Below, piece by piece: positions 32,031 through 58,721 of a stretch of DNA of 64,000 nt. A program made the translations under genes and the position numbers. Source of the stretch: Pyropia yezoensis (Eukaryota; Rhodophyta; Bangiophyceae; Bangiales; Bangiaceae); contig CM020619.1 in NCBI GenBank assembly GCA_009829735.1, positions 3,292,590 to 3,356,589 of the forward strand, given 5' to 3'. The stretch's first letter is position 1. Every line of letters starts with the position of its first letter. The notes below the pieces were generated by a model that saw only the letters and a program-made list of their open reading frames with translations, made no database searches and was not told where the DNA came from.

Positions 32031-32031
32031 C

Positions 32032-36214: not shown

Positions 36215-36232
36215 TGGCGCCGGCCGGACCGG

Positions 36233-40275: not shown

Positions 40276-40281
40276 GACGCA

Positions 40282-41595: not shown

Positions 41596-41882
41596 GGGCC
41601 GCCCAGGGTTGTGTAATACTGGAACGTGTTGTCTCTCTTGTCTACGACTGCTTTGATATTGTTGTTTTCTGTCGTTTGTGGAAAGGTTGAGGACGTGGCC
41701 CGTCGGCTTTGTCATGTGGTAATGTCTCCGTGAGCTGTTCCCGCCCTCGTTCCAGGTGTCGATTTTCATCACGAGAACTCTGGACGGCTCTCCGTATTGT
41801 CCACGACACGATCACGCTGCTGATGAGACAGGGCACAGTCGGCGTGCGTGCCTCTTGTCGTTGGGCACAACCCCTGGTTCGC

Positions 41883-41896
41883 GTTATGTACATAAC
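41883..41896. promoter_or_regulatory. 14-bp palindrome GTTATGTACATAAC, copy 5
   Basis: Perfect, and extended here to the 20-bp palindrome CGCGTTATGTACATAACGCG (41,880-41,899), followed by AGCACGG. In the spacer between dioxygenase and methyltransferase genes. Confidence 0.65.
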
Positions 41897-42047
41897 GCGA
41901 GCACGGGAGGGGCGCTCGGGCGACGGGGCACGAAACATCTGACAGGATTGCATTTGCACAGCAAGGAAGGGTGGACAAGCCCGCCGCTGTGTCGTTGCGC
42001 AAAATCGCCCCACCGGGGCCAGACTGCATTGCAATCCCGTGCGACGC

Positions 42048-42061
42048 GTTATGTACATAAC
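42048..42061. promoter_or_regulatory. 14-bp palindrome GTTATGTACATAAC, copy 6
   Basis: Perfect. It has the same 20-bp extension (42,045-42,064) and the same following AGCACGG as copy 5, 165 bp away. Confidence 0.65.
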
Positions 42062-42102
42062 GCGAGCACGGACTCGGCGCGGGTGCTCTGAGACCTCGCG
42101 AT

Positions 42103-42116
42103 GTTATGTACATAAC
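42103..42116. promoter_or_regulatory. 14-bp palindrome GTTATGTACATAAC, copy 7
   Basis: Perfect. It lies 251 bp upstream of the methyltransferase ATG at 42,367. Confidence 0.65.
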
Positions 42117-42366
42117 AAACCCATAGTTCCGATGCTGTAATTCTTTTAAATGTTTGGTAAATGAGTTGGTATTGGACAAATCGGACGAGGTGTTCCCTGT
42201 GCTGGAAGCAAGTTCATTTGTACTTGAGATACGATCAGTGTCAGTCTCCTTGCCGGTCTCCTCTCGGCATCGTCATCGCCGTTCCTCTCCACGTGTACTG
42301 TCCGCACGGTGCGACCTAGGCTGCGTTCTCTTCCGCGATTTGTGGCCCCTCCTCTGCGTCACCACC

Positions 42367-44640
42367 ATGCCGTCAAGGGATTCTGTAGAGGTGGTCAACC
42401 TTGTCACGATCTTCGCAGAGCGTGCCGCGTTGGCGGTTGCGGGAGCAGAGACGTCTTCACCATCTTTGCCGTATCCTTGTGGGGTTGTCGTTTACGTCCT
42501 TGGGACTTTGCGCGATCTGTTTTTCCTCCATTCCCTGGAGGGCAGGGGGGGGCGCTTGCTAGGCTCAGGGACGTGGGTTGATCTTGTCGACTGGTGCGAG
42601 CACCATTGCCAACCTATGGTTGACATGGATCCGGTCTATCTGTGGGACAGAGTGGGCCAACCCAGGCTACATTCCCGCACTCGCTGGCTGCACGATAGCA
42701 TCGCGCACGGGGTCTATGAAGCCGTGTGGGTACTGAAGCGGTTCGTAGCAGTACCGCGTGCTTCCTTCAGTCTTGGTCGGGTACTGCGCTTTGCATCCGG
42801 GTCGCGGTGGCACACAGTGGCAACCGCGAGTGGTACTGTCCCCCGTGCTGGGGCCGAAGACCCCTCGGATGACGAGGACATGCACCGGCAGCGGAACGTT
42901 AGGCTGGTGCCCGTCCCCGCGGACGAGGATGTTGACCTGAGGGTGTGGCAACTGCTGCTTGTACTGGGCGGCGAGGTTGATGGCGTTGCCGAGCTCTGTC
43001 GTTGGGCGTCCCGCCGGCGGTGTCATACGGAAGAGGAGCATGCCCCAGATCGCCCTGTAAGGGGAAGTTGGCGCGCGTGTCCCGGGCTAGCGCAACACCT
43101 GCTGCTTCGCGATGTGCTCGGTGTGGGTGGTCGCGGTACCCCTTTAGACACTGTGGACGACGACGACGACGACCTCTCCACTTTCCGTGCATTTGAGCAC
43201 GTTTTGTCCATGTCGTGTTACTACTGTCTAGAGCAACATCTCCGACGGGCATCCCTGTCCACATGGACTCCACACACGGGCGAGCAGGAAAGGCAGTACG
43301 AGGAGCGTCTAGCCAGCTGTTTGGACGGCGTGGCAGCCCGAATTCGGATTATTGTTCGCGACGTCGTTTCTGGTTGGGATGTCGTGGCGCGCAGTCGGGG
43401 TTTTCGCTCCGCCGAGGTGATGCTGTCTACGCACATGCTGTGGTGTCCGTCTGGGGGCTTCTTCGTGGCGCTGGGGCGGTCATTGGACGCAGAGGATAAC
43501 CTCACATCACCCGACGGACAGGCAGTGGACCTGCACACCAGGAAAGGGCCGGTCCGTGGTGGCACTGTCCCGGTACAACGGCAGAGCGCAGCGTCAGGCC
43601 AGCAGTCGGATGGAAAAGATGATGAGCAGAGGGCGGTGGGGAGGCTGACGCCGCTTGCAGATGCTCAGCTCCGTGCTGCCGCTGGCACCATGCTTGAGCA
43701 CGTACACGTGTGCACCGGCGCACACCGCCTGGGCATTACGGTGACGCGCGGCCTGCTGGGCCGTGGAGGTCGGGGTGACGCGAGCGCCGCGACCCCTGCG
43801 GGCGACGGTGACGACGCAGCCCACACTGGACAGCGGCGTCGTAAGCAGCGCAAGGTCGTGGGCTTCTTGACCGTGGAGGACTACAGGCACCCAGAGTGGG
43901 ACCGCCTGTCTGGCAATGTGCCTAGAGTACTGCGCAGCGTCTTGGCGGGGCTGACTGCGTTTTCAAGCTCCCCCCCCGCTGGCCGCGGGGGTACGGCGCC
44001 TGCGTGGGCGACGGCGTCTACTGTCGCTCGTCGGGGGCTGTCACCTGCGCCCGACCGTTGTGCATCTTCCGCCAGAACGATTGAGTTGGCGTTTCGTGCT
44101 GACTGCAGAGTGGGTGGCTGGATGGCAGAGCAGCAGGTGGTGGGAGGGTGTCGATCAGGGCTGTCAATTGGCCGCGGGGCGTTGTTGTGTGGGGGTGGCC
44201 GGCAGGACCAGCCGTTTCAGCAGCCTCAGCAGCCCGACGGCCCCGGTGATGCTCCGCAGGCTGACCTGGGGGAAGCCTGGGGCGCGCTGGATGATGCCAT
44301 GGGCCAGGTTTGTGCGACCTACGCTTGTGGGTTTGATGACTTGCTCTCGGCTCACGCCACAGATGTGGCGGCGCGGTCCAACGCGTCTCGTCGCATGGGT
44401 GGTGGCGGTGCGCGTGGCATCCACGGGGACGGCAGCGCCGGGGGGCGGGCAACGACAACCTCTACACCGACAGGCGAGCACACCCTCCCCCCGTTTATTA
44501 GTTCTTCGGTACAGCTGGTGCTCTGTAATCCTCCGGACAGCATTCGGGCGGACAGGAGCCCGGAGCAGTCTGCACATGACGTGTTTGCCTCTGACTGTGG
44601 CGTTCTGAGCCCCTGGGACCGTTGGAACCCGGGAGACTGA
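42367..44640 (+). CDS. DNA methyltransferase-SET gene, first long exon (N-terminal region and motif IV)
   Basis: 757 open codons from the first ATG. The N-terminal 600 residues have no recognised domain; they include acidic DDDDDD and several hydrophobic helices. The last 50 residues contain VQLVLCNPPDSIR, with NPPD at about residues 721-724. This resembles catalytic motif IV (D/N/S-P-P-Y/F) of amino-methyltransferases, though Asp replaces the usual aromatic. The stop at 44,638-44,640 is probably inside an intron, because the next methyltransferase motifs resume at about 45,184 in another frame. Assignment to the same gene rests on motif order (IV, then V-VI-like, then QK, then I), as in beta-class enzymes. 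It could instead be a separate gene. Confidence 0.6.
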   Translation: MPSRDSVEVVNLVTIFAERAALAVAGAETSSPSLPYPCGVVVYVLGTLRDLFFLHSLEGRGGRLLGSGTWVDLVDWCEHHCQPMVDMDPVYLWDRVGQPRLHSRTRWLHDSIAHGVYEAVWVLKRFVAVPRASFSLGRVLRFASGSRWHTVATASGTVPRAGAEDPSDDEDMHRQRNVRLVPVPADEDVDLRVWQLLLVLGGEVDGVAELCRWASRRRCHTEEEHAPDRPVRGSWRACPGLAQHLLLRDVLGVGGRGTPLDTVDDDDDDLSTFRAFEHVLSMSCYYCLEQHLRRASLSTWTPHTGEQERQYEERLASCLDGVAARIRIIVRDVVSGWDVVARSRGFRSAEVMLSTHMLWCPSGGFFVALGRSLDAEDNLTSPDGQAVDLHTRKGPVRGGTVPVQRQSAASGQQSDGKDDEQRAVGRLTPLADAQLRAAAGTMLEHVHVCTGAHRLGITVTRGLLGRGGRGDASAATPAGDGDDAAHTGQRRRKQRKVVGFLTVEDYRHPEWDRLSGNVPRVLRSVLAGLTAFSSSPPAGRGGTAPAWATASTVARRGLSPAPDRCASSARTIELAFRADCRVGGWMAEQQVVGGCRSGLSIGRGALLCGGGRQDQPFQQPQQPDGPGDAPQADLGEAWGALDDAMGQVCATYACGFDDLLSAHATDVAARSNASRRMGGGGARGIHGDGSAGGRATTTSTPTGEHTLPPFISSSVQLVLCNPPDSIRADRSPEQSAHDVFASDCGVLSPWDRWNPGD

Positions 44641-45183
44641 CTTGGGACCCGGCTGGCTGCGTTACGTGGAACCACGCGCTGGCCGAGGATCCCTGCATCG
44701 GTGGCCCGGGGCAGTGGCGACACGCCCGGTGCCCTGATTGGTCACCCGGAGCGGTGGACTTGCCGGGTTGGGGCATACTGAACTTCGGGTTACTTGTTTG
44801 ATTTTTCGCATTGGTTTTCCTTGCGTGATTTCGTGTCTTTCCCCTTTTTCCCACTGGGTTTTATTTGGGGATTGACATTTGTGTGTGAGGGGATTTCGCT
44901 TGCTTTTTGTGTGTTGGCCCGGTGAGCGGCCGGTGCCTTGCTGGCACTTGGCCCGCTGGGGGCGCCCTCTGGGGGCCTCGCTCAGGGCCCCTGGAGGGGC
45001 CAGGGGGGGGGAGGTTCTTGAGAGGTGCTCCGGGGTTCTCCCCGGGGCCATCTTGTAAAATCAACAGTACTTTGGGTTCCTTCTCCCTCAGGCTTTTGTC
45101 CTGTTTACCTTTGCCTCGTATCGTGGCGGGCGAGTGGATCAGAAAGGGCTCTTACCTGTTCCTTCCTGGGCCTCGGACTGTAG
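44641..45183. other. Probable intron between methyltransferase exons
   Basis: No coding signal that continues either neighbour. Pyrimidine-rich stretches end in CTCAG near 45,093 and CTGTAG near 45,183, both possible 3' splice sites. Exact boundaries are not decidable. Confidence 0.4.
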
Positions 45184-45567
45184 TCTCTGTGTGTGTGGTT
45201 GTGGTTTCTGGGTCCGGGAATCTGGGTCCCATTACGCTACACTGACGACATGCAGCGTGCCGCCCGATTGTTTCAGACCGTCGTCCGCCCTGGCGGCCAT
45301 GTGCTCATTTTTTGCTCTGCGGTACAGCTGGGTCCGTGGATGGACACGCTCAAGGCGCTCAAGGATATGGATCCGGTGGGGAGGAAGAGCCTGTCGGCGT
45401 TTCGAGTGGACGGCCACCCGCTGGTGGCGATCAAGGACGCACACGCGGTGAACTCGCTGCGGCAGAGCACGGCCAACCTGTCCAAAAAGGTCGAGTTTTT
45501 TGTCCAGGCCACGCGCGCTGGGGTGTCCCGGGAAGAGTGCTACGCCATGGTCAACTACCGTACTTGA
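45184..45567 (+). CDS. DNA methyltransferase, second exon region
   Basis: About 120 codons containing RLFQTVVRPGGHVLIFCSA, the strand-turn-strand found after motif IV in beta-class DNA N4-cytosine/N6-adenine methyltransferases (typical form: LKPGG-LLVF). The remainder, to AMVNYRT, is charged and helical and could be the start of the target-recognition region. The start is approximate (possible acceptor at 45,183). The frame ends in TGA at 45,565, and coding resumes one nucleotide out of frame, either by a very short intron or through a 1-nt sequence error. Confidence 0.6.
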   Translation, partial: SLCVWLWFLGPGIWVPLRYTDDMQRAARLFQTVVRPGGHVLIFCSAVQLGPWMDTLKALKDMDPVGRKSLSAFRVDGHPLVAIKDAHAVNSLRQSTANLSKKVEFFVQATRAGVSREECYAMVNYRT

Positions 45568-45711
45568 AACGCTGTGTGTGCCGTCGCGGTTCCTGGCCCA
45601 CGACAATGTCATTGACAATGTGAGACCGCCACACTTTAAGGAGGTGGTGCTTCGATGGCGGGATGGGTCGCGGCAATGGATACGACCAGAGCAAAAGTGC
45701 CTTGCCCTCAT
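45556..45711 (+). CDS. DNA methyltransferase, exon up to the retrotransposon insertion
   Basis: About 50 codons (PSRFLAHDNVID, FKEVVLRWRDG) ending RPEQKCLALI. This is the conserved (H/R)PxQK-xxL segment that precedes motif I in beta-class DNA methyltransferases. The coding sequence stops abruptly at the LTR. The last two bases of an Ile codon (AT) fall within the CTCAT target duplication and are completed by the C at 55,096. The start boundary is approximate. Confidence 0.7.
45707..45711. repeat. Target-site duplication (left) of chromovirus copy B
   Basis: CTCAT, repeated at 55,091-55,095 directly after the 3' LTR. Confidence 0.95.
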
Positions 45712-46179
45712 TGTGGCAGTATTGACCCCCAGGTAGGGGGCAACACGTGCCATGCAAGGGGCGGCAGGCCACTAGCCTGGTCCGTTCCTCCCCCTGCATT
45801 TGGGTCCATATTCCCTAAGTTCGGGATAGTTAGCTTAGTAGTAAATCCAACTTGGATTTGAGGGTTTTCTGCATTTATCGTCTTGAATTTTCGTGTGGCC
45901 CGGTGGGCAGGTGCTGGGGTGGGAGATTCTGAGTGGCGAGATTCTGAGTGGACCCTGGGGGGATAAGGGGAGGGACAGCGGGGCTTGGCCCTGCGTCCCC
46001 GTCCCGACCAAGAAACTGTTGGACCACACACCATCTTCTTGTTTGTCCGTGGGGGGATTGCCCCACAACAGGGATAGAGTGTGTGCGACTTGCACTTCTT
46101 CCGGTTCCCCCGACACGGGAGGCAGCCCTCGCACACCGCCCCAACTTGGGTACTGTGTGTGCGAGTGGTTTTTGCCACA
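45712..46179 (+). repeat. 5' LTR, copy B (468 bp)
   Basis: TGTGGCAG...TTGCCACA, identical to 54,623-55,090. It differs from the copy A LTRs by one fewer G in an early run and several substitutions. Confidence 0.97.
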
Positions 46180-46181
46180 TT

Positions 46182-46199
46182 TGGTGGAGCAGCAGGGGA
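46182..46199 (+). other. Primer-binding site, copy B
   Basis: TGGTGGAGCAGCAGGGGA, two bases after the LTR, identical to copy A. Confidence 0.65.
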
Positions 46200-46298
46200 C
46201 AGAGGTAAACTTTACCTCCGGGTGCACCCGGGTGTAGGGGGCCCTCTGTCTCAGAGGAACGGTGGACTTGGACCGTGTCATACGGATCGTTAGCCAAC

Positions 46299-48245
46299 AT
46301 GGCTAGCTCGGACCCCCCGTCGTCCGGGGAGTACACGGGTGACGCACGTACTTCAGTGCCTTTGAATACTGGTGAGACACAGGTGGGTTTACCTGGGGTC
46401 GCAGAGGGACTAGAGGTCCCTCAAGCCAGCAGGACTGGAAGTGCGGGCGGGCAACAGGCCACCCCGACTCAGTCGGGAGTTCACTCGGGTGACACTTCTG
46501 ACGTGGGTGGGCCGAAGTCTGGCCACCGCGTGGTATACTCAACGGGAACGTCCCAAGGGGTGAGGACTGTCCCCGCGAGTTCCACTCGGGTTGGAGCCAA
46601 CTTTGGCATGGAGCCATCGCCAACTAGGCTTTCGGAGGACGGCGGACCTCCGTTGGTCGGCGATGGGCTCGCGCCCATGCCCCCGGTTGAGACCCCTGAG
46701 GAACGTGGTTACCCCTCAGGTGGACTCCCGGAGGCGGACCGAGACTCAACTGGAGTCGTCAATCCACTCCTCGCGGAAACTGTCCGTCGGGAGGCGACCA
46801 ATGTGTTGCGGCAGACTTTGCCGGACCTGGTGGTCACGATGACGAATACTATTCTGAATCAGATTGTAGCGAGTTTGCCAGATGGCCTGAATGTCCAGAC
46901 CGGATTGGGGCTTTCGAGCCCACAGGCGCAGGGGGAATCCCTCCCCACGCCTATCTCGGGTCGCCCCGAACTGGGGGCGACACCTGTGACTCCCAACGAG
47001 GGAGCCACACCATACGCGGTGGGGCGTACGCCCTTCACGGGGGAGTTCCCCTCGGAAACGCCGGCGGCTACACCAAGCTCGCCGTACCAGACTACAGGCA
47101 CTGAGGGTGGACTTACCCCAGTGCCACAGCGGCTGTTCCCTCAACGTGAGGTGCCGCCCAAGATCCAGGTAGCCAACCCGGTCTACCAGAGGATCTTTGA
47201 CTGTGAGACCTACGCCCTCCACAACAAGTCGGTGGCGTATGGTCCTGACCAGGCCCGAGCTATGGGCCGTGCCAAGAAGAATGCACTTCATTCTTTTGGG
47301 CACAGAGCGGAGTGGGATGGAACTCCCCCCCTCCGTGTCTTTGAGTTCCTACGTCGTTTCACAAAAGCCTGTGACGACAATGCCATAAGTGAAGGCATGG
47401 CTTTTTACATGCTACAGGAGTTTACGAAGGGAGACCTGCGGACAGAACTTATGTCCGTCATGCCCAGCTCCTCAAGTGGAGGCGCTGGGGAGGTGACGTC
47501 CTATTTGGAGCTCGTCAACTGGTTGTTGAGGGCCATGGTTGATGAAGCGGCGTTGGCTTCTCAAGTCGAGGAGTTTACGCAAGCCCATCAGGAAGAGGCG
47601 GAGGACGAGTTGTCCTTTGCGGAGCGAGTCCGTAAGCTCAACAATCTTTGTGGGTTTCTTCATCCACAAGCTGTGGTGAAGAGTCGGTTTGTGGAAGGAC
47701 TCCACTGGTCAGTCCGGATGGAGACCCGGGAGCATAACACTGCCCGGGCGACCCTGGCCGAGTTGGCTAGGTTCGCCTACCGCAGAGGCGAGGCCTACCG
47801 CAAGTTGCGGGAGGAACAACGCCAGGAGCGTCAGGCCGAGTTGGCCAAGGAACGGGAAGAGGCGCGCCAGGCCAGAGAGTTGCGAGAGGCACGCCGAATC
47901 CGCAAGGAGAGGGTGGTAGCTGCCGTGGGAACTTCCCAAGGTACCTCGTCGTCTTCCCCAGTTGGGAAGACCCCTCCGGGAACTGATCATCGGTGTTGGA
48001 ACTGCAACTCCGATGGTCACTGGGCATATGATTGCCCCAAGTTGAGTAAACGCATCCAACAGCTTGTTAGGAATGCGAGTAAGAAGTCGGCTACGAACGA
48101 AGTGCGTTCACGCCGCGAGGGTGGGTCTCGACCAGTGGTGGCGGTCGCCACACCCTCGACGGAGGGGGCGGACACGTCGTCCTCGGACTCGTCGTCGTCC
48201 CCTTCGCCCTCAGATTCGGACGCCAAGTCGGCGGGAAACGAATGA
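46299..48245 (+). CDS. gag: Gag polyprotein, copy B
   Basis: A 648-aa structural protein, start ATG in CCAACATGG context. It has a disordered Pro/Thr-rich N-terminus, a capsid-like central region, an Arg/Glu-rich helix, one CCHC knuckle (CWNCNSDGHWAYDC from residue 566) and a Ser/Asp tail. It is nearly the same as the copy A gag, with scattered replacements mainly in the disordered parts. The last codons overlap the frameshift site; the stop shares ATGA with the pol ATG. Expected in the cytoplasm as a particle protein that packages the element RNA. Confidence 0.95.
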   Translation: MASSDPPSSGEYTGDARTSVPLNTGETQVGLPGVAEGLEVPQASRTGSAGGQQATPTQSGVHSGDTSDVGGPKSGHRVVYSTGTSQGVRTVPASSTRVGANFGMEPSPTRLSEDGGPPLVGDGLAPMPPVETPEERGYPSGGLPEADRDSTGVVNPLLAETVRREATNVLRQTLPDLVVTMTNTILNQIVASLPDGLNVQTGLGLSSPQAQGESLPTPISGRPELGATPVTPNEGATPYAVGRTPFTGEFPSETPAATPSSPYQTTGTEGGLTPVPQRLFPQREVPPKIQVANPVYQRIFDCETYALHNKSVAYGPDQARAMGRAKKNALHSFGHRAEWDGTPPLRVFEFLRRFTKACDDNAISEGMAFYMLQEFTKGDLRTELMSVMPSSSSGGAGEVTSYLELVNWLLRAMVDEAALASQVEEFTQAHQEEAEDELSFAERVRKLNNLCGFLHPQAVVKSRFVEGLHWSVRMETREHNTARATLAELARFAYRRGEAYRKLREEQRQERQAELAKEREEARQARELREARRIRKERVVAAVGTSQGTSSSSPVGKTPPGTDHRCWNCNSDGHWAYDCPKLSKRIQQLVRNASKKSATNEVRSRREGGSRPVVAVATPSTEGADTSSSDSSSSPSPSDSDAKSAGNE

Positions 48246-48308
48246 CCGTTGGAGCTGGTCGTCCGAAGCTCACAACGGCAGCCTCGGCCAAGTGGGCCAA
48301 GAGGACGA
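48233..48308 (+). promoter_or_regulatory. Programmed -1 frameshift signal, gag-pol, copy B
   Basis: GGGAAAC at 48,233-48,239 is read G GGA AAC in gag. A -1 slip enters the pol frame directly. After a 6-nt spacer, CCGTTGGAGCT (48,246-48,256) pairs with AGCTCACAACGG (48,267-48,278): 11 bp with one bulged A. Loop bases TCGTCC (48,259-48,264) are complementary to GGACGA (48,303-48,308), which would complete an H-type pseudoknot. The pol frame is also open upstream of its ATG, as a frameshift product requires. Reinitiation at ATGA is the alternative. Confidence 0.78.
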
Positions 48309-51300
48309 ACCAACCGTGTCGGATACTGCGGCGACCTAAGGGAGTCCGCCCACCTCGGGTGGGACTTCCCAAGAACGTAAACCCACGTCGGGTCATCGCG
48401 GTGCTGACGGGTGAGAACTTCCAGGTGGCTGGACGGGTGCAACTTGCCCCCGGCCGCGCCTGTTGTGCCCGTATCGTACTTGATACCGGGTCAGGAGCCT
48501 CCTTGATACGCAAGTCGCTATTACCAAAGGGGATGAGGCTCCAACGCTGGAAGTCTAAAGCTGACCATCTGATCGATATCAATGGTGGGGTACTTCCCAT
48601 CGTTGGTGCCGTGACCCTACCAACTCGGTTGGGGACCCATGAGGTCGACGTGACCTATGGTGTAGTTGAGAATATATCGGTACCCCTGCTTCTGGGTACC
48701 CCTTATGTCGTAACACAAGTGCCTTTGATTTGTGGCCCTGAGTACTGGGTCAAGTTGATGAATGGGGAGACTATCCCCATCCTTGGTAAGGGAAAGTCTG
48801 TGGCTCCTGTGACAGTTTCACAGTCGAAGCCTGTTTGTTCTGTGAGGGAAGGGTTTACTGCTACTCTGCGTTTAGCCCGTAAAGTCATGTTGCCCCCCAA
48901 CTCGGTGGCGCACGTGGATGTTGTAACTGATTATGCGGGGAACGGGTTGGTGCACCCTAACCCCCGTCTTGCTCGCAAGCACCAAGTGCATGTTGCCCTT
49001 GGCACGATGGACTCCAAAGCCGGAGTCCCGTGGAGGATCCAGGTGATGAACCTGAGCTCGTCGCCCAAGTTCTTCAAGTCGGGGGCCAAGTTCGGCTATA
49101 TCGACCAACACGAGGGACCGGTAGTAGCGGTCACCCTCAGCGCGGGCGCAAGTAGCGACCCGCAGTCCGGAAAGGAGAAGCATCAAGCCAAGTCGGCCGC
49201 CTCTCCTCGGCCCCAGGTAAACATGGAGGGTGTTCCACCCAGGTTGAGGGTTCAAGTTGAACGCCTCTTGGACCAATATCACAAGTTGTGGGATGGTCAA
49301 TTGGGACTCATGAGAGCTACCCAACACCGGATCGAGTTGAAACCCGGTGCGCCCCCTATACGCCAACAACCGTATAGGGGGGGACCCCGTTCAAGGGCCC
49401 TCGTTAAGGAGCAAGTTGCTCGCATGGAGGCCCTCGATGTGATCGAGGCCAGCAACGCCGAGTGGGCGAGTCCGGTGGTGATCGTCCCCAAAGTTGATGG
49501 GACCCCCCGGTTCTGTATCGACTACCGTAAGCTCAACGAGAGCACGGTGAAGGATAGTTATCCCCTACCTCGGATGGATGACTGTCTGGACTCTCTGGGG
49601 GAGGCAAACGTGTTCTCTACCCTGGACTGTAACGCGGGGTACTGGCAAATTCCCATTGCCCCGGAGGACAGGCATAAAACTACCTTTACCTGTCACTGTG
49701 GTACCTACCAGTGCAAGCGCCTACCGTTTGGCCTGTGTAACGCGCCGGCAACTTTCCAGCGCGCTATGGACATGATTCTGGCCGGAGTACGGTGGCAGAT
49801 CTGTCTCGTGTACCTAGACGATATCATTGTGTTCTCCCGAAGTCCGGAGGAACACATTGGCCATCTTGGCCAGGTGTTCAAGCTACTTGCTGACGCCGGA
49901 GTGTCACTGAAGGCGAGTAAGTGCCACCTCTTCACTCAAGAGGTGGAGTACTTGGGACATGTTGTCCGTCCGGGGCGTCTCAGTGTCAACGAGAAAAACT
50001 TGAGGGCCATCCGCAAGGCTCAGTACCCCCGGACCCAGACCCAGATGAGGAGCTTCCTCGGGATGTGTAACGTGTACCGACGTTTCACTAAGGGCTTCGC
50101 CAAAGTGGCGAAGCCGTTGAATGAGTTAGTGAGCTCAACGCTACCGAAGAACCTGCCTCCCCCAAGTCGGGTGGAGCAGGAATCCTTTGAGACTCTTCGG
50201 GACCTTCTGCTGAAGCCCCCTATCCTGGCTATTCCCAGGTTGGGAGGCCACTACATCCTGGATGTGGACGCTAGCTACGACCAACTTGGTTGTGTGTTGC
50301 TTCAGCAACAGCCGGACAAGGAGTACTTGCCGGTGGGATACTTCAGCAAGGGGCTAAACTCGGCCGAGAAGAACTACGGAGTCACCGAGTTGGAAGGACT
50401 CGCAGTGGTATGGGCGGTGACGTCACTTCGTCACTACCTAGAGGGTGAGAAGTTCCTCATCCGCTGCGACCACCGCGCGTTGCAGTTCATCTTCAAGACG
50501 GACTGTACGAACACTCGTCTCAACCGGTGGAGGGTGCGACTTGCACCCTTCAACTTTGATATTGAGTACCGACCTGGCAGGCAACATGCCCTTGCCGACG
50601 GCCTCTCTCGGGTACCTACCGAGGGACTGGACACCACCCCAGTCGATGAGGACATCCCCATCGTGGGGGTAGTCACGCGCTCGGGTCAGGCGTTGAATCC
50701 CGAGGCGCCAGGGAACAAGAAGTACTTGCCCCTGTCCCTGGACGAAGTAGTGAAGGCCCAGGCCGAGGATCCCTTCTGCAAGTCGCAGAGGGATACCCTG
50801 GATACAGTGGCGGAGACGCGGTTCTTCCTGGGAGACGATGGCCTCCTCATGAGGAGGGGGGTATTCCAGGGGACCGAACAACTTGTCGTCCCCGCATCCC
50901 TCAAGGACAGTATCCTTGAGAGGGAGCATAACGCTCCCACGGGTGGACACCTGGGGTCTAGTAAACTGTACCAGACCCTGAGGACCAGGTACTACTGGCC
51001 GTCCATGGTGGTGGACATCTACAGTTGGGTGGCTGCCTGCACAAGTTGTGCACAGAACCGTCTGATGGAACGGCGGCCTACTACGGCTATGCTATTGTTC
51101 CCGGCCAAGGAGCCCTTCGCCGCGTTGGCGATGGACATCCTTGGGCCACTGCCAGTGACCGAGGAGGGCAACCAGTACCTCCTGGTCATCTGTGACCGCT
51201 TCACGAAACTTACGCGAGCGATCCCACTGGCAGAGATCACGGCCATGTCGGCCGTGTCAGCCTTCCTAGATCACTGGGTTGCCGCGTATGGCATTCCGGA

Positions 51301-52225
51301 TAGTACACTATCGGACAATGGACCGCAATTTGCGTCTGTACTGTTTCAAGGAGTGCTGGATATGTTGGGGGTTAAGGCAAACTATGCCACCCCCTACCAC
51401 CCACAAACTAATGGGCAGGTGGAGCGCTTCAACAAAACTATTGTTAGGCAGCTGCGCCATTATGTGAGTGAGCACGTGAAGACGTGGGACCAATACATTT
51501 CTATTCTGACCACTGCCTACAATTCGCAGGTTCACTCATCTACCGGGGAAGTACCCCTCGCTTTTGTGACCCCCCGTCGCGTGCGGTCTATTGCCGTGCG
51601 GCGGCCGCTCCCAACTAGGGAGGATGGTGGCAGTACGCCCACTCCTACTGAGAGTAAGGCGGAGTTCGCTGCTAGGCTTGAAAACCTCATCCCTAAAGTC
51701 AGGGCTGAGATGGACAAAGCACAAAAGCGCTACAAGCGTACCTTTGACAAAAAGGTGCGCAACGCCAAGCATGTCCCCGAGCAGGGTGACTGGGTATTGG
51801 TCCACTCACACACCCCAACTGGGGGTAAGTTGGTGTTCCAGACGAAGGGGCCGTACCAGGTCCTTCGTACTGATGGGCGGCGCTTCACCATCGAAAGTGA
51901 CGATGGGGTCCGCACAGTGAACGGACAGGACGTGGTCAAAGTTGCACCACCGCCTGCAGGCGACCCAGCTTGGGCGCGTGCCTTGAAAACGTGGCGCCTG
52001 CCCTCGCTGCCTGCAGCCAAACAGGGCCCGCAGGAGTACGTGTTCGACAAGTTCATCGACCACGGCTGGGATGAGGATACTGACCGCCTCATGTTGAGGG
52101 TGCGTTGGTTTGGCTACAAAGCCAAGGACGATACGTGGGAGTATGTGGAGGACCTTCCTGCTGAGAAGGTCCGGGCGTACTGTGCCCGGAACGAGATAGA
52201 CCCTAACAGCCCTCCCTCAACGTGA
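48242..52225 (+). CDS. pol: Pol polyprotein (PR-RT-RH-IN-chromodomain), copy B
   Basis: 1,327 residues if counted from the overlapping ATG. Domains in order: aspartic protease (DTGSGAS from D81), reverse transcriptase (YLDD at 524-527), RNase H (D674/D676, the TELE Glu near 716, D743 in RCDHRAL), integrase zinc finger (H896, H903, C933, C936), and catalytic core D965, D1025, E1061 with 35 residues between the last two. The C-terminal chromodomain at about 1,266-1,317 has YVFDKFIDH, LRVRWFGYKAKDDTWE. This order and the chromodomain place it among chromoviruses, whose integrases often steer insertion toward particular histone marks. No inactivating change is seen. Probably made as a Gag-Pol fusion by -1 frameshifting. 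Confidence 0.96.
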   Translation: MTVGAGRPKLTTAASAKWAKRTNQPCRILRRPKGVRPPRVGLPKNVNPRRVIAVLTGENFQVAGRVQLAPGRACCARIVLDTGSGASLIRKSLLPKGMRLQRWKSKADHLIDINGGVLPIVGAVTLPTRLGTHEVDVTYGVVENISVPLLLGTPYVVTQVPLICGPEYWVKLMNGETIPILGKGKSVAPVTVSQSKPVCSVREGFTATLRLARKVMLPPNSVAHVDVVTDYAGNGLVHPNPRLARKHQVHVALGTMDSKAGVPWRIQVMNLSSSPKFFKSGAKFGYIDQHEGPVVAVTLSAGASSDPQSGKEKHQAKSAASPRPQVNMEGVPPRLRVQVERLLDQYHKLWDGQLGLMRATQHRIELKPGAPPIRQQPYRGGPRSRALVKEQVARMEALDVIEASNAEWASPVVIVPKVDGTPRFCIDYRKLNESTVKDSYPLPRMDDCLDSLGEANVFSTLDCNAGYWQIPIAPEDRHKTTFTCHCGTYQCKRLPFGLCNAPATFQRAMDMILAGVRWQICLVYLDDIIVFSRSPEEHIGHLGQVFKLLADAGVSLKASKCHLFTQEVEYLGHVVRPGRLSVNEKNLRAIRKAQYPRTQTQMRSFLGMCNVYRRFTKGFAKVAKPLNELVSSTLPKNLPPPSRVEQESFETLRDLLLKPPILAIPRLGGHYILDVDASYDQLGCVLLQQQPDKEYLPVGYFSKGLNSAEKNYGVTELEGLAVVWAVTSLRHYLEGEKFLIRCDHRALQFIFKTDCTNTRLNRWRVRLAPFNFDIEYRPGRQHALADGLSRVPTEGLDTTPVDEDIPIVGVVTRSGQALNPEAPGNKKYLPLSLDEVVKAQAEDPFCKSQRDTLDTVAETRFFLGDDGLLMRRGVFQGTEQLVVPASLKDSILEREHNAPTGGHLGSSKLYQTLRTRYYWPSMVVDIYSWVAACTSCAQNRLMERRPTTAMLLFPAKEPFAALAMDILGPLPVTEEGNQYLLVICDRFTKLTRAIPLAEITAMSAVSAFLDHWVAAYGIPDSTLSDNGPQFASVLFQGVLDMLGVKANYATPYHPQTNGQVERFNKTIVRQLRHYVSEHVKTWDQYISILTTAYNSQVHSSTGEVPLAFVTPRRVRSIAVRRPLPTREDGGSTPTPTESKAEFAARLENLIPKVRAEMDKAQKRYKRTFDKKVRNAKHVPEQGDWVLVHSHTPTGGKLVFQTKGPYQVLRTDGRRFTIESDDGVRTVNGQDVVKVAPPPAGDPAWARALKTWRLPSLPAAKQGPQEYVFDKFIDHGWDEDTDRLMLRVRWFGYKAKDDTWEYVEDLPAEKVRAYCARNEIDPNSPPST

Positions 52226-52336
52226 GGGAAGGCCGAGCAACAGTGCCAAGAGAGTGCTTCAAGTCGAAGTGGTACGCAGAGTGGCTTTAAACTACAGCCC
52301 TAACCCTCACACTCTCACAACAAAGGCAGCTGCCAA

Positions 52337-54280
52337 CTAGGCACGCATGCTAGACTCTCCCACTCCACGGCCCTCGCCCTCACGTGGAGGCGAGCGGCGA
52401 GACCCACGCCGATAACGGTCTCCACTCGTTGGAAGGGGCGGCGGCTCCAAGTCGGAACCGTCGCGCCCCTCACGGTCGCGCAAGTGGCGCCGACCGTGGC
52501 TACTCTTCTGCCTGGTCTTGCGCGCAAGTTTGCGACGCAGACGCTGGACAGACTCCGTCTCCGATGGGGTAGAGGACTCCGAGACGGAGTAAGACAACTC
52601 GTCTTCCGACACGGAGGGAGAGCGCCGCGAGTGACGGCGACGACGGCGAGGAGGCGAGTATGCCCGGCTCGCACGACGCTTGCCACGCCCAAGTGGGGTT
52701 GGCTGGGGCATAATAGCCCCAATGCGAGCCAACTCGGCCGTCATAAACTCCGCCACCGACTCGCAACTCGCGGTCGCCACTGCAGTACGAACGCGCTCCT
52801 CAAGTTGAGGAGTCTCGGAACTTTGGAGGGTTGCGGTCGACGCGGCCAACCAGGAAATGGTGCGCACCAACGTGGTGATCATCATCTCTGAGGTTAGAGG
52901 CGTGGGCGGTAACACCAACTTGGGGTATACCGTCAGGAGGGTGGCCCCCAAGTTGGGAGACACCGGTGTGGATGACTCCACGGCCACGCTGATCGGGATG
53001 TTCCCGTGAGGCTGGAAAGGAACAGGAGGAAGCGGAGGGGCACGCCGAGGTGGCGGTACCCGGGTGTAACTGCGACCCCGACTTGGGGCTCCCGCAGTAG
53101 GTTGAGTCATATGGTCATCATATGAGGGCACAGCCATAACTATGGGCTTGTCCGGGGGTGGCGCAGTGTGACGATCCACCCCCGGGGCATACGGGTAGTC
53201 CCCGATGCCCAACCCCTCTCGTAGGACCACACGGCCGTCGTGAAGTTCACGAGCGACCCACACGAACTGGCGAAGTGCGCCATCGTCCTTGGGCCCCCGA
53301 GTGGGGCGGCGCAACTTGTGCTCAATGCTCTCCCACTCGATAAACTTGTGGAGGCGGAGCATCTCCTCAAGTAGAGTGAGTTGTCCTGACGAGCACCCCT
53401 CAGCAACTAGCTGAGGGGTGAGCTGTTCCAAACCCTGGATGAGCCGGAGGGGGAGATGCCAGAGCATCCCCCGCCGCTGAACACATGACACCCAGGTCGA
53501 CATGACCTCGAGGAGCCACTGGGTGGCCAACATGGCCCACACCAGATGATCAGGGCCAGCCGTCAACATGACGGAGCCGAAGTGGTCAAGCAACCGTGGC
53601 AACAATGCCGGGAACCCGTAGGGGACCTCAACTTGAGGCCACCACTCGGGCTTCTTCGGGTAGTATTGCTCCTTACTGGCAGCAGACTGCTGAGGAAACT
53701 CAAGTTGAGCCGAGGTCACCAAGTAGGGACCTCGCCGGAAGTCCTTCTCCATCCGCACATCAAAGTGATGAGTGTGCGGATCGGCCTCGTGAAGGTACGG
53801 GGGGCGAGTTGCCACCGCGTCCCAAGTGAAGATCGGCAAGTCGCCGGGACCCGGGATAGTTCCCCCGCGGTCCACCATGGCCTTGGCCCGCTGCACGTCC
53901 TCGACCTCCTCGTCGTCCAGGAAGGCAAACTGGTCCGTCCTGAAGCCGGCAGGGAACCCGACCCTACGGGGATACTTCTCCCGTAGGCGGTCCCATACCC
54001 GACCCATCGCTGCGCCGAGTCGGCCACAGCGAAGAACAGTCAACCCCTCCTCATACAGAGGCCAAGCGGGGTAAAACCACCGCCCCAAGGCCTCACGCGG
54101 GACAACTTGTCCCGCCTCCGGGGGAGATCCTGCCGTCAACCCAAAGCCGGGTGACGCGGGAGTCCCACCCCCCGGAGCGATCGCGGAGCCCCCGCCGGAA
54201 GTCCCGGCAGGCGCTGCACCGTAGGAGGTGTCCTCCATACGCTCATCGAGAGAGTCCGTCTCCACTCCCGGAGTCGCCAT
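52337..54280 (-). CDS. Antisense ORF protein of the chromovirus (647 aa)
   Basis: Convergent with pol (111 bp between their ends) and begins 342 bp inside the 3' LTR. The frame stays open 57 codons further up, but without an ATG. Layout: disordered N-terminus, a folded-looking middle (about 100-390) with FPAGFRTDQFAFLDDEEVED, WWPQVEVPYGFPALL (W213-W214) and VVLREGLGIGDYP, a Pro-rich linker, a helical stretch (EERVRTAVATASCESVAEFM) and a basic Arg/Ser-rich tail (RRRRRHSRRSPSVSEDE). The middle matches the stand-alone 342-aa protein at 19,754-20,782, supporting real translation. Some plant Ty3 elements carry extra or antisense ORFs in this position, of unknown role. The basic tail suggests nuclear or nucleic-acid binding; it could act in regulation, packaging or counter-defence. 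Confidence 0.8.
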   Translation of the reverse strand: MATPGVETDSLDERMEDTSYGAAPAGTSGGGSAIAPGGGTPASPGFGLTAGSPPEAGQVVPREALGRWFYPAWPLYEEGLTVLRCGRLGAAMGRVWDRLREKYPRRVGFPAGFRTDQFAFLDDEEVEDVQRAKAMVDRGGTIPGPGDLPIFTWDAVATRPPYLHEADPHTHHFDVRMEKDFRRGPYLVTSAQLEFPQQSAASKEQYYPKKPEWWPQVEVPYGFPALLPRLLDHFGSVMLTAGPDHLVWAMLATQWLLEVMSTWVSCVQRRGMLWHLPLRLIQGLEQLTPQLVAEGCSSGQLTLLEEMLRLHKFIEWESIEHKLRRPTRGPKDDGALRQFVWVARELHDGRVVLREGLGIGDYPYAPGVDRHTAPPPDKPIVMAVPSYDDHMTQPTAGAPSRGRSYTRVPPPRRAPPLPPVPFQPHGNIPISVAVESSTPVSPNLGATLLTVYPKLVLPPTPLTSEMMITTLVRTISWLAASTATLQSSETPQLEERVRTAVATASCESVAEFMTAELARIGAIMPQPTPLGRGKRRASRAYSPPRRRRRHSRRSPSVSEDELSYSVSESSTPSETESVQRLRRKLARKTRQKSSHGRRHLRDREGRDGSDLEPPPLPTSGDRYRRGSRRSPPREGEGRGVGESSMRA

Positions 54281-54609
54281 GGCTCTCCCCAAGTTGGGGA
54301 GAGACGTCCTGGCTATCGCGGCACGAGACCCGCCTCGAGTTGAGGGGGACTCGGATCGTGGGTAAACGGGTGGCCTCCCCAGCGTGGGGTGGCCCCGTGT
54401 AAGGTGAAGGAGAAGTGGTGGTGGTGGTGAGGTGTGAACCGGGGAGAGCAAGCTGCCAAGTGGGCAAGCTTGAGGAGAGGGGCGGCCAACGTGACCGCCT
54501 CCACATCCGCGTTACGTACTCAAGGGGGGACAGCAAGTCGCGTCCCCCCCCAACGCCGAGACGTGCGTTTACGCACCCCCTCACAGGGCCGACCGGGTCG
54601 GTCGGAACT

Positions 54610-54622
54610 GAGGAGAGGGGAG
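54610..54622 (+). other. Polypurine tract, copy B
   Basis: GAGGAGAGGGGAG directly before the 3' LTR. Confidence 0.85.
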
Positions 54623-55090
54623 TGTGGCAGTATTGACCCCCAGGTAGGGGGCAACACGTGCCATGCAAGGGGCGGCAGGCCACTAGCCTGGTCCGTTCCT
54701 CCCCCTGCATTTGGGTCCATATTCCCTAAGTTCGGGATAGTTAGCTTAGTAGTAAATCCAACTTGGATTTGAGGGTTTTCTGCATTTATCGTCTTGAATT
54801 TTCGTGTGGCCCGGTGGGCAGGTGCTGGGGTGGGAGATTCTGAGTGGCGAGATTCTGAGTGGACCCTGGGGGGATAAGGGGAGGGACAGCGGGGCTTGGC
54901 CCTGCGTCCCCGTCCCGACCAAGAAACTGTTGGACCACACACCATCTTCTTGTTTGTCCGTGGGGGGATTGCCCCACAACAGGGATAGAGTGTGTGCGAC
55001 TTGCACTTCTTCCGGTTCCCCCGACACGGGAGGCAGCCCTCGCACACCGCCCCAACTTGGGTACTGTGTGTGCGAGTGGTTTTTGCCACA
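54623..55090 (+). repeat. 3' LTR, copy B (468 bp)
   Basis: Identical by reading to 45,712-46,179, and followed by the CTCAT duplication. Confidence 0.97.
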
Positions 55091-56602
55091 CTCATCCTCG
55101 AGCTCATATTGCGGTTTTCCCAGCCCGGGGACATCGTACTGGACACGTTTGCGGGGACGTGTGTGGCGGCGGCAGCGTGTATTCGGGCGGTCCTGGGCCA
55201 GCACCGTTTGGTCATCAGCTGCGACTCGGATGCTGTTGTCATTGACGCGAGTCGGGCTCATCTGCGTCGGGAGTTTGTCAACCAGGGGCTGATGGTGGGC
55301 TACGAAAGCTCGGGGGTGGTCACATCCGATGTCATTGCGGCCGCACGGACAATCGAAGCCGCGTCGGTCGCTGCCGCTACAGCTACAACAGCAGCAGGGG
55401 CGGGGGGGGAGACCGACAGCGAGGGCCGAGGCGGTAGTGGTGCGGCTGTCGGGGAGGAGATTGAGCTGATGATCAACCCACCCTCGTCTGTCATGGGAGA
55501 TGATGCTGCTGTCTGGGAGCCCCCCCCCGGGCTGCCCTGCCACTCTGCCTGGTCGTTGGAGCTGGTGCGACACTTTGCCGGGCGGTGGGCCATGCAAGAA
55601 GACGCTCAACGGGCGGGCCTCGTGGCACAGACACCCGGGCTGCCGCGACCTGGCGCAGATGTGGGTGTCGAGGTGGCCCGCCTGGAGGGCGTTGGCGTGG
55701 CGAGCTGGCCGCGCCTGTACCAGTGCGCCCTCGCCGTGGAGGACGCGGAGGTCGCGCTGCACGTGTCGGCCGCACACCTGGGGCTGTACGTTGCCCAAAG
55801 CCGCTTGGCGGGTGGGACGGCCGGTCGTGGCGTCTTTGCGTTGCGCCCGTTCAAACGACAGGACGCGATTGCACCTTTTTGGGGGACCATTGTGTACGCT
55901 GACCTGACAGAGCAGCGGGTCAAGACGCCGCGGTATGCCGCTTCTGTGCTGGGTGCCCACGGCCCCACGGCGCGGGAGTTTTCGGAGCGCGCGATGGAAA
56001 TGGTGTTTGACGACTTGGACGTAGATGGCCCGAATGACGCCGTAGAGGCGGACGTCGGGGGGGGTGAGCCGGGTAACCAGAAGCACGCTGACGTTCGCCC
56101 TCGCCACCACCGCCGCCGTCGGTACGATGGCGAAGAAGGGGGGGGGGGTGGTCGCACAATGCGAAAGCGACAGAGCCAACAAGGCCATAACCACGGCGGC
56201 GGCCCTGCTACTGACCTCGGTACCGGAACATTGGCTGGGTGCAGGGGCGTGCCGACATCTCTCTTTATCGTACCGTCCCCACTGTGTGCGACGGGCTACG
56301 TCAATGACGGGCGGGCAACGTCCCCGGTTGATGCCGAAGCGACATTGGCCCAGACGGGCGCCGGGCCCGCGGACAGTGATGGAAGACGAGGCGGCGCCGG
56401 CGGCAGACGTGGCGACCGGGGAGACGTCCGGCTGGTGCGGCCAAACGTGGCCATCGTCGCCAATGTCGATGACGCGCAGCCGGTACGGCTGACGCCTGCA
56501 CACTTTGTCAGGCCCGTCATGATGGTGGTCATCGCGCTGAGGGACATTGCCGTTGGTGAGGAGCTCGTTGCGGATTACGGGGCGGACTATGTCTTTTGTT
56601 AG
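55091..56602 (+). CDS. DNA methyltransferase motif I fused to a SET domain (3' part of the interrupted gene)
   Basis: One uninterrupted frame of about 504 codons. It opens with the second half of the methyltransferase core: LILRFSQPGDIVLDTFAGTC, the motif I (FxGxx) AdoMet-binding loop, then VAAAACIR and an acidic motif II-like end (LVISCDSD). A 150-residue Ala/Gly linker and a helical region follow. The SET domain comes next: GRGVFALRPFKRQDAIAPFWG (N-SET), GYVNDGR (the position of the NHxxxPN-type loop, with ND instead of NH), RPNVAIV, and VVIALRDIAVGEELVADYG with catalytic-type Tyr (C-SET). A basic/Gly insert splits the SET halves. Expected role: nuclear enzyme coupling DNA N4-cytosine or N6-adenine methylation with protein lysine methylation. 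It is severed from its N-terminal half by copy B. Confidence 0.82.
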   Translation, partial: LILELILRFSQPGDIVLDTFAGTCVAAAACIRAVLGQHRLVISCDSDAVVIDASRAHLRREFVNQGLMVGYESSGVVTSDVIAAARTIEAASVAAATATTAAGAGGETDSEGRGGSGAAVGEEIELMINPPSSVMGDDAAVWEPPPGLPCHSAWSLELVRHFAGRWAMQEDAQRAGLVAQTPGLPRPGADVGVEVARLEGVGVASWPRLYQCALAVEDAEVALHVSAAHLGLYVAQSRLAGGTAGRGVFALRPFKRQDAIAPFWGTIVYADLTEQRVKTPRYAASVLGAHGPTAREFSERAMEMVFDDLDVDGPNDAVEADVGGGEPGNQKHADVRPRHHRRRRYDGEEGGGGGRTMRKRQSQQGHNHGGGPATDLGTGTLAGCRGVPTSLFIVPSPLCATGYVNDGRATSPVDAEATLAQTGAGPADSDGRRGGAGGRRGDRGDVRLVRPNVAIVANVDDAQPVRLTPAHFVRPVMMVVIALRDIAVGEELVADYGADYVFC

Positions 56603-56733
56603 GCCGACTGGGAGCGACGCGGCAGGGCAAGTGAGGCGGGCGTGCTGCTGAGCCACTCGACACCCCACACGTTTGCCCCCCTGAGCGGGTGAAGATTGGG
56701 GTGGGGTGTGCCCTTTTTTCGTTGGCACTTTGG

Positions 56734-56734
<1 letters not shown>

Positions 56735-56768
<34 letters not shown>
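56735..56768. repeat. Poly(G) run, 34 nt
   Basis: Uninterrupted G tract between the 3' ends of the SET-containing gene and the convergent minus-strand gene. Confidence 0.95.
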
Positions 56769-56769
<1 letters not shown>

Positions 56770-56931
56770 GGGGGCCCGTCTTGCAGACACGCAGGTGGGG
56801 GAGGGAAACGTGTGAACATCAGCCACGCATACGCACAGAGAAGAGCTCCGAAGAAAAGCCAGGATGAAGAAGAAAACAACAGAGAGACAATACAAAGCCG
56901 ACGCCAGCCAGCCGGTGGCTGCGGCTCCCTG

Positions 56932-58020
56932 TCAATGGCGGCCAGGCTCCGGCCCTGCCGGCTGGTCCAAACCCCCACCCCCACCCAATCCGCACCCGCA
57001 CCCGCCCCCACCGGAGTCATCCGACCCCTGAAGGGAGTCGTCGTCGTCGCCCCGCTGCCGTGCAGTGGCTGCACGCGCGAGTGCATTGCGGAGCTCCTCG
57101 TTCCGGCGCGTCTGGTGTGCCAAGTTGTCGGACATCGTTTGCAGATTCCTCGAGGATTCGAGGAGCCTCTCCGACATCCCGGCCAACAGGCTCAGCGCCT
57201 CAGTGATGTGAGGAGTGGCGGGGTCGGACTCCCGGGACACGCGCACGGGAACAACCTCCGTGGATGGTCCGCCAGTGAGCACCACGTTAGGCACGTCAGT
57301 ACGCAACAGTGCGGCCAGATTGTTGGTCGTCTGCAGCAGGTGCTGTACGTGTGCGGCTTGCTCTGCCACCCGGCGGTTGAGGTCCTCCATCACTTCACGG
57401 CGCGCGCCCGTAAGTCTGCGACGGAGGAGCTGCCTCTTGGTCACTCTGCCCGCATGGCCATCCCGGTCGGCGGCCCCCCCAGCCCCAGTGTCCGGTTCGA
57501 AAAAACCGATGCGCGTCAGCACGTCTTTGTTGCTGGCAAGGGGTGACTCGTCGGGTGCGGGGCCCGCCCCACCTGCCCCCTCCTCCTCGTCGTCGTCAAT
57601 GGCGGTATAGCGCGGGGGCGGCTGCGCCGCCGCCGCACCCATTCCCCCGCCCGGTGCGGCCGCCGAGGAGTAGATGGCACGCTCACCTGCCGCGCCGCCC
57701 TCGCCGGCCCACTCGGATGACGCCCCTTTCCCGCGCGTCGTAGACACGCGCCGCAGGAAATTTAGCACGGCGTCCTTGACGGCCGTCGACAGGTCGAGCC
57801 GTCCCGGGTTCTTCAGTTCGACTTTGCTTCTGGTCCTTGCCGGTCCTGCCCCACTGCCGCCGTCTGTCTCGCTATGGAACTCGAGTGCCAGGCGCCGAAA
57901 AGACGCCACAGCTTCATCGGCAACGTCAAAGACAGTGCGGAGTACATCTGGGTGCACATCACGCGCGACGCCCACTCGGGCCTTGGCGGCCGAGACACGG
58001 CGCGCAGGGTGCCGAGGCAT
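56932..58020 (-). CDS. Coiled-coil protein of unknown function
   Basis: A 362-aa protein from an ATG at 58,020, convergent with the methyltransferase-SET gene. The N-terminal about 100 residues (VHPDVLRTVFDVADEAVASFRR, LDLSTAVKDAVLNFLRRV) look like a small helical domain. The middle is Gly/Ala/Pro-rich and acidic. Residues about 200-330 form two predicted coiled-coil stretches (REVMEDLNRRVAEQAAHVQ, EALSLLAGMSERLLESSRNL). The tail is Gly/Asp/Pro low-complexity. No catalytic motif. A C22 tract (coding strand) ends 37 nt before the ATG, almost the same spacing as in the gene at 20,782. A structural or scaffolding role is a guess. Confidence 0.6.
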   Translation of the reverse strand: MPRHPARRVSAAKARVGVARDVHPDVLRTVFDVADEAVASFRRLALEFHSETDGGSGAGPARTRSKVELKNPGRLDLSTAVKDAVLNFLRRVSTTRGKGASSEWAGEGGAAGERAIYSSAAAPGGGMGAAAAQPPPRYTAIDDDEEEGAGGAGPAPDESPLASNKDVLTRIGFFEPDTGAGGAADRDGHAGRVTKRQLLRRRLTGARREVMEDLNRRVAEQAAHVQHLLQTTNNLAALLRTDVPNVVLTGGPSTEVVPVRVSRESDPATPHITEALSLLAGMSERLLESSRNLQTMSDNLAHQTRRNEELRNALARAATARQRGDDDDSLQGSDDSGGGGCGCGLGGGGGLDQPAGPEPGRH

Positions 58021-58057
58021 GACTGAGCAGCAGAGGTTGGGGGAAGGACGAGGGGGA

Positions 58058-58090
58058 GGGGGGGGGGGGGGGGGGGGGGAGGGGGGGGGC
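58058..58090. repeat. Poly(G)-rich tract (G22 plus G-rich tail)
   Basis: G22 at 58,058-58,079, then A and a further G run. It lies in the 5' flank of the coiled-coil gene. Confidence 0.9.
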
Positions 58091-58721
58091 GGGAGGAGGG
58101 GGGGGTGGCGGGGGGAGGGGGCCTTGTGCAGGAAAAAAAAGTGCCTTCAGTGGAAGTACTCCACTGTGCGGCGTCATGCACACCAAGACCCTCCGCACCG
58201 ACAAGCCGCGAGCTCAGCAGGCAGCCACCCACCAGGCCGATGAAAACATGGGAAGCGGCCGCCCACCGACCCCACCAAGAGCCCCGCCTCGGCGACTAGA
58301 CGCCACGCCCGCGACGGCGGCGGCCACGACCCTTGCCTGTTCGTCCCCTGCCTCCCCCTCAATTGTTGTGCTGTGCGCCCACTTGGGCCTGCTCAGGCCC
58401 GTTCTGTCAACGTCCTTAATACACGCTTCTCGCGGAACGTCCCTCGTGAGCAACGCACCAACATTGTACGGGCTCTGACACTGGCCGTCAGGGCATACCC
58501 GCAAGACCGAGAGTCTTGACGTCTCAGGACCGTCACAGGAAATGCGATTTATCGATTGGAGGAGGGGTTACAAAAACTCCACGCTTTTTCAGATGTCCGC
58601 GGACACGGAGTTTTCTGTACGATTTAGCCTTCTGTCGATCTTACGAACGGTTCCCCAATGTGGGCCCACAGCTCACACCCTTGCCCCGAACCCCCCCCCC
58701 CCCCCTCTATCTAAAGGAACA

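Follow-up and report, generated by a model that had tools for sequence, protein, structure and literature searches.

We analysed a stretch of 64,000 nucleotides from the genome of the red alga Pyropia yezoensis (nori), which corresponds to C2:3292590-3356589 of the assembly and is referred to as the window (coordinates without a prefix are window positions). It carries a damaged gene for a protein in which a beta-class DNA amino-methyltransferase (MTase) is followed by a SET domain, and this gene lies within a giant mobile element. In the window the MTase-SET gene consists of three pieces separated by two insertions, one of them resembling a solo long terminal repeat (LTR), each with its own target-site duplication (TSD):

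42367..44595 (+), MTase-SET pseudogene, N-terminal part, through and beyond motif IV (NPPDS replaces DPPYN)
44596..45241 (unstranded), solo-LTR-like insert, 646 bp, TG...CA, TSD CTGAC; a 93% identical repeat is present in L048
45242..45711 (+), MTase-SET pseudogene, middle part from RPGGHVLIFCS through RPEQKCLALI; stop and frame break near 45565; the final 5 bases are the TSD CTCAT
45712..55090 (+), Ty3/gypsy-type LTR retrotransposon within the coding sequence, 9,379 bp, LTRs at 45712-46179 and 54623-55090, pol at 48083-52222
55096..56602 (+), MTase-SET pseudogene, motif I and SET domain, ~30 amino acids shorter than sister copies

A preliminary description of this locus had placed motif I and the SET domain in a single frame; this frame (55,091-56,602, +) is indeed open throughout and contains PGDIVLDTFAGTC followed by the SET region, and the motifs RPGGHVLIFCS and RPEQKCLAL were both found upstream in the order described. 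The upstream exons that had been assumed do not exist. Both gaps carry TSDs and are absent from sister copies of the gene, and the split structure is therefore attributed to transposon damage rather than to splicing, which was considered and rejected given that no intron is required. The two LTRs of the Ty3/gypsy insertion are identical at 468/468 bases, its TSD is CTCAT, and its pol frame contains RVT_1, RNase H, Integrase_H2C2, and rve domains above the Pfam cut-offs and a chromodomain below the cut-off. The insertion splits the codon run LALI/LELILRF, and the site without the insertion is read through as RPEQKCLALILELILRFSQPGDIVLDTFAGTC.

The motif-IV-like NPPDS lies within the frame 42,127-44,640, at the place where the sister copy L047 has DPPYN. 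When the frame 55,091-56,602 alone was compared with the Pfam profiles, SET was recognized (25.2 bits; cut-off 22.4), with the alignment covering only the last 22 residues, and N6_N4_Mtase was not (19.7 bits; cut-off 26.7). Because motif IV is altered, the frame is broken, the end is shortened, and two insertions are present, the window copy is, judging from its sequence, a dead pseudogene unable to make the protein.

Unbroken sister copies and the protein family

The genome was searched using the motif I-SET piece, which gave at least 89 matches. These were collapsed to at least 54 places by merging 14 fragment rows with their neighbors and dropping 21 weak SET-only rows (E-values 3e-6 to 4e-4); the place counts given here for MTase and helicase genes are lower bounds since the genome searches scored the best candidates only. 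Close places (≥80% identity) number 22, counting the window and some partial copies; 8 are of intermediate identity (46-65%), and 24 are far (≤45%). The whole protein is encoded by one intronless frame in sister L047 (1,431 amino acids from Met), where DPPYN (DPPYNIRADRS) at 722 is followed by RPGGHVLIFCS, RPEQK(CLAL) at 889, DTFAGT(C) at 914, and the SET domain. Catalytic motif IV thus precedes the SAM-binding motif X/I, as in the beta class. Both Pfam cut-offs were exceeded by L047 (N6_N4_Mtase 42.3 bits, SET 23.4 bits) and also by the more divergent copies L043 (49% identity; 42.4 and 24.0 bits) and L045 (38% identity; 37.0 and 23.1 bits). L046 is likewise a single frame, with a changed motif X. 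In a confident AlphaFold2 model, a methyltransferase resembling CcrM precedes a SET fold resembling that of PRDM9; the fold of a beta-class amino-methyltransferase and that of a SET domain were thus both recognized, PRDM9 being the best match of the latter. No Chromo match was found in the MTase-SET proteins scanned.

The architecture is already present as database entries. A search with L047 gave 15 proteins at E ≤ 1e-5, a closely similar deposited protein is I4F81_007964 of Pyropia yezoensis, and a search with a member from Chondrus crispus gave 85 proteins at E ≤ 1e-10, of which 85/85 contained PF01555 and 40/85 also PF00856 (precomputed annotation, counted by hand). These homologs include a large set from public contigs (P0017-P0096). 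For the family alignment 97 rows were used, namely 94 of the 95 family sequences with P numbers together with L043, L045, and L047; P0003, a gene model without motif X/I, was left out. The Asp of motif IV, the Asp of motif I, and the Gly of motif I were each invariant (97/97), the fourth residue of motif IV was Tyr in 73/97 and Phe in 22/97 rows (DPP[YF] in 95/97), and the SET region was spanned by 92/97 rows. Conservation of this degree places the MTase and SET motifs beyond chance. Three subfamilies within the nori genome differ from one another at 0.63-0.72 of fourfold degenerate sites and at 0.33-0.43 of first and second codon positions, alike in the MTase and SET parts. This lower divergence of codon positions 1 and 2 argues for long-term constraint on both halves.

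The intronless single frames of sister copies, the conserved motifs, and the predicted folds indicate that the fusion of a beta-class amino-methyltransferase with SET in one protein is real. The single polypeptide that had been proposed from the window is accordingly borne out for the unbroken copies in the genome and for Chondrus crispus, which carries the same architecture, and not for the window copy itself. It could be argued that MTase and SET are two separate proteins, encoded by neighboring genes or joined by an annotation accident, as the window pieces are parted by insertions and a frame break; the single open frames in L043, L045, L046, and L047, the independent deposits including Chondrus crispus, and the 92/97 rows that span both parts make this hardly credible.

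The preliminary description left open whether the MTase would be of the N4-cytosine or N6-adenine type. The closest solved relatives of the MTase half are N6-adenine enzymes (CcrM, RsrI, DpnA/HpyAVI, M.BceJIV), and for this reason the predicted DNA mark is likelier to be N6-methyladenine (6mA) than N4-methylcytosine (4mC). That the DNA half is instead an N4-cytosine methyltransferase, as in bdelloid rotifers, appears improbable, given that the top structural and sequence matches are N6-adenine enzymes and that DPP[YF] is kept in nearly all rows.

Searches for an origin of the fusion outside the red algae gave matches to the MTase part only in four bacterial loci, and a single weak record (24% identity) in phage. 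Viral contigs gave no match in one scan and at least 11 loci, matching the MTase part only, in another; fusions may exist elsewhere. Besides the fusion, the 36 PF00856 matches in the nori genome include many small SET-only frames of ~200-460 amino acids, several of them near-identical in score, which possibly represent another dispersed SET family.

The giant mobile element

The preliminary description implied a single acquired host gene. The gene is instead part of giant mobile elements with many copies, and the element in the window comprises, in addition to the MTase-SET pseudogene, the following features (ORF, open reading frame):

7131..7167 (+), left terminus of the giant element, AGTTATCCTGGTGGGGAAAGG...; 4 other copies, unrelated in their flanks, start in the same way
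7168..17402 (+), second Ty3/gypsy element, inserted into the left end of the giant element, TSD CCCGG, LTRs identical at 469/469 bases
17403..62864 (+), body of the giant element, running on past the window; multi-copy homology with nested insertions
32525..33778 (+), RING-finger ORF (zf-RING_2 37.9 bits; cut-off 27.3)
39310..41592 (+), ORF that a stop interrupts in the window, part of a 983-amino-acid open frame in L047 (Zn_ribbon_ACC 22.9 bits, below the cut-off of 24.5)
56935..58146 (-), 404-amino-acid ORF in which no known domain was found
61044..62717 (+), N-terminal part of a long ORF ending in a UPF1-like superfamily 1 (SF1) helicase; the helicase domain lies outside the window, and the ORF is open through in the C1 copy
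62865..64000 (+), other high-copy repeat nested in the giant element, copies 99% identical, LTR-like start TGTGG

Homology to other copies extends from 7131 to 62864, is broken by nested elements, and is longer in other copies. All left ends that were read (n = 5) begin with AGTTA. The right end, which was located by comparing C1:32673870-32693850 with C2:21375528-21385500, was seen in 5/13 stretches as AGTTA (three), AGTTC (one), and TGTTC (one). The copy on C1 extends from C1:32635847 to 32684705 and thus measures 48,859 bp (by subtraction), with AGTTA at both ends. When the left end was searched in inverted orientation near the right end, no terminal inverted repeats were found. Two other candidates for the right end were rejected: position 62864, where 17 rows stop (query 6263-6264), is the border of a nested repeat in the window and other copies continue beyond it, and a nested Ty3 element is present at L064:1864.

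The flanks of the element copies share no similarity. Several copies, distributed over three chromosomes, have sharp fixed ends and flanks unrelated to one another. This makes an ordinary, immobile family of host genes that multiplied by segmental duplication very improbable, an explanation for which the 100% identity of C2:3382498-3386513 to window 16200-20214 could be cited. This segment (4,015 bases, ~74 kb downstream, the nested Ty3 end included) may, in view of its perfect identity, have arisen by duplication very recently or be a duplicate made in assembly.

The long helicase frame is 1,779 amino acids in length, and in L063 the UPF1-like SF1 helicase was recognized by AAA_11 (80.6 bits) and AAA_12 (119.3 bits; cut-offs 27 and 27), with TIGR00376 at 135.6 bits below its cut-off of 348.9. 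The ORF at the right end of the giant element (a frame of 1,455 amino acids) shows the Fanzor motif order D...[TS][TS]xxCxxC...RD with different spacing. The distances are 404 and 366 residues from D to TS and 142 and 130 from TS to RD, outside the Fanzor/TnpB pattern as published, D-X(125,275)-[TS][TS]xx-C4-X(5,50)-RD (PMC3627910). Its Pfam match was below the cut-off, only 2 homologs were obtained, and no meaningful match was found among PDB sequences; the AlphaFold2 model had a predicted local distance difference test (pLDDT) score of 33 and was left unused.

For the genomic association of the MTase and helicase genes, 81 helicase rows were collapsed to 69 places, and the 57 at ≥70% were used. 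A helicase on the same strand within 60 kb downstream was present for 20/22 of the close MTase places and for 12/24 of the far ones, while uniform random placement of 24 (repeat-rich regions not modeled) gave a mean of 0.39 with a helicase and a maximum of 3 in 2,000 trials. In the 12 far pairs MTases that are 32-44% identical stand beside helicases that are 85-96% identical. This pairing of divergent MTases with nearly the same helicases suggests an exchange of arms between elements, with very unequal evolutionary rates as the alternative. Of the two arms, the right one with the helicase and the Fanzor-like ORF probably serves mobility, and the one with MTase-SET is probably exchangeable.

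Large algal viruses, too, typically carry helicases, RING proteins, methyltransferases, and Fanzor-like ORFs. Together with the large size of the elements and the presence of the viral SET protein vSET of PBCV-1 among the profile matches (E-value 0.0012), this gene content would fit endogenous remnants of a large red-algal DNA virus, with the MTase-SET gene being viral. We regard such an origin as improbable, given that no capsid, terminase, or DNA polymerase was found among the scanned subset of the element's ORFs and that the scans of viral contigs gave no match in one case and, among the matches listed in the other (at least 11 loci), the MTase part only.

Further observations concern the element and other parts of the genome. 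An antisense ORF of the Ty3 insertion (52340-54511, -; 724 amino acids) is related to a gene at L067:2321-3439 (-) (26% over 295 amino acids, E-value 5e-17), which is located close to the giant element's left end, so that one gene is common to retrotransposon and giant element. Two paralogous genes in opposite orientation (50% identical over 214 amino acids) occur in the giant element at L067 6385-7242 (+) and 8195-9022 (-), and the same pair is found in the window at about 24102-24498 and 25864-26260. Minisatellite-like repeats (35526-37645 and 59060-59597) are common to the left and right parts of the element and are multiplied in other copies. The Ty3 copy that comes first in the window contains a run of unknown bases (within 13840-15420; X in the translation), either an assembly gap or a masked stretch. 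Elsewhere in the genome, four tandem frames with a Phage_integrase match, ~5 kb apart and three of them 1,391 amino acids long, were observed at C1:39063250-39078480.

Interpretation and comparison with known systems

We consider it very probable that the window holds a dead copy of a genuine fusion gene (N-terminal domain, beta-class amino-methyltransferase, and SET) from a family of ~49-kb modular mobile elements in nori. Several results weigh against this interpretation and against an enzymatic function of the fusion. Among 11 newly fetched predicted right ends the terminus was seen in only 3 (8/11 none), and in the MTase group of intermediate identity a helicase within 60 kb downstream was present in 0/8. 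No recombinase was found; the 13 genome places matching PF00589 (Phage_integrase) all lie farther than ~45 kb from any MTase place, with the DUF3435 model not searched. SET scores are barely above the cut-off, with P0004 (20.5 bits) and P0007 (21.5 bits) below 22.4 and P0087 without a match. The NHxC motif is missing, its His being Asp in 79/97 rows, and the C-terminal catalytic Tyr of SET (GEExxxDY) is kept in 79/97; the remaining 18 rows have a gap (7) or another residue (11). Within the recent family the ratio of nonsynonymous to synonymous substitution rates (dN/dS) was 0.81 (78 pairs, 13 copies), or 0.71 when restricted to the 7 copies whose C-terminal part is open (21 pairs); the corresponding values of the SET part were 0.94 and 0.83. 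With these near-neutral values the resident copies look mostly unconstrained, decaying after insertion.

The loss of the NHxC His makes a SET part that is no longer an enzyme the strongest rival explanation. SET would then be a targeting or reader module bringing a DNA methyltransferase with a single activity to chromatin, as the chromodomain of bdelloid N4CMT does, and the incomplete retention of the Tyr, the SET-part dN/dS near 1, and the long insertions that nori copies have within their SET region agree with it. On the other hand, the SET Asn (82/97) and Tyr are mostly kept. PRDM-type SET domains, the class of PRDM9, lack NHxC and are active nevertheless, and as PRDM9 is the best fold match, loss of the His alone does not imply an inactive SET. 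We regard an inactive SET as possible, though doubtful.

If both halves are active, the unbroken copies would methylate adenine N6 of DNA, and the SET half would methylate lysine of a protein, most likely a histone. The target would be the new chromatin of the element itself, where the paired DNA and histone marks may provide controlled expression or protection. Such a dual writer acting in cis is put forward tentatively. The wider scheme, in which giant red-algal elements encode one bifunctional writer of 6mA in DNA and of methyl-lysine in the histones of their own chromatin, with divergent versions exchanged on a shared helicase/Fanzor-like arm, is more speculative still. A full-text literature search yielded no description of an MTase-SET fusion or of the giant element among the titles and abstracts listed; if both substrates were used, this would be, as far as the literature searched shows, the first single protein in which a DNA mark of bacterial type and lysine methylation of proteins are coupled. 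With the gene on giant elements, the question of how mobile DNA manipulates host chromatin could then be tested in an alga that is in cultivation and has a sequenced genome of three chromosomes. The finding might also be relevant to the red alga Asparagopsis, where N6_N4_Mtase genes are expanded to a reported 66, with neither a SET fusion nor a mobile-element explanation in the passages considered (PMC12115072).

Compared to bacterial beta-class N6-adenine MTases (CcrM, RsrI, M1.HpyAVI/DpnA, M.BceJIV), the proteins described here have ~720 additional N-terminal residues before motif IV and a SET domain at the other end, and they are eukaryotic and located on mobile elements. The SET part differs from SET domains of the PRDM9/KMT2/SETD8 type in that ND replaces NHxC in most rows and in the long insertions of the nori copies. 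In bdelloid rotifers N4CMT is a PF01555 amino-methyltransferase fused to a chromodomain (PMC8885841), and thus combines a reader of histones with a writer of DNA marks. There 4mC was demonstrated and a single gene forms an allelic pair, whereas in nori the mark is predicted, a SET domain takes the place of a C-terminal chromodomain, and many copies are borne by elements.

SETMAR, which consists of SET and the Hsmar1 transposase (PMC9062482), resembles the present case in joining a SET-type lysine methyltransferase to mobile-element machinery; there a host gene has captured a transposase, and here the element encodes SET fused to a DNA MTase. Fanzor-bearing transposons (PMC3627910) share the motif order of the right-end ORF, and differ in that the spacings here exceed the ranges given in the source and the Pfam match is below the cut-off. 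The fungal Starships are likewise giant, modular, and cargo-carrying transposons with short direct end repeats, whereas the nori elements reside in a red alga, and no tyrosine recombinase was recognized here with PF00589 (DUF3435 not searched).

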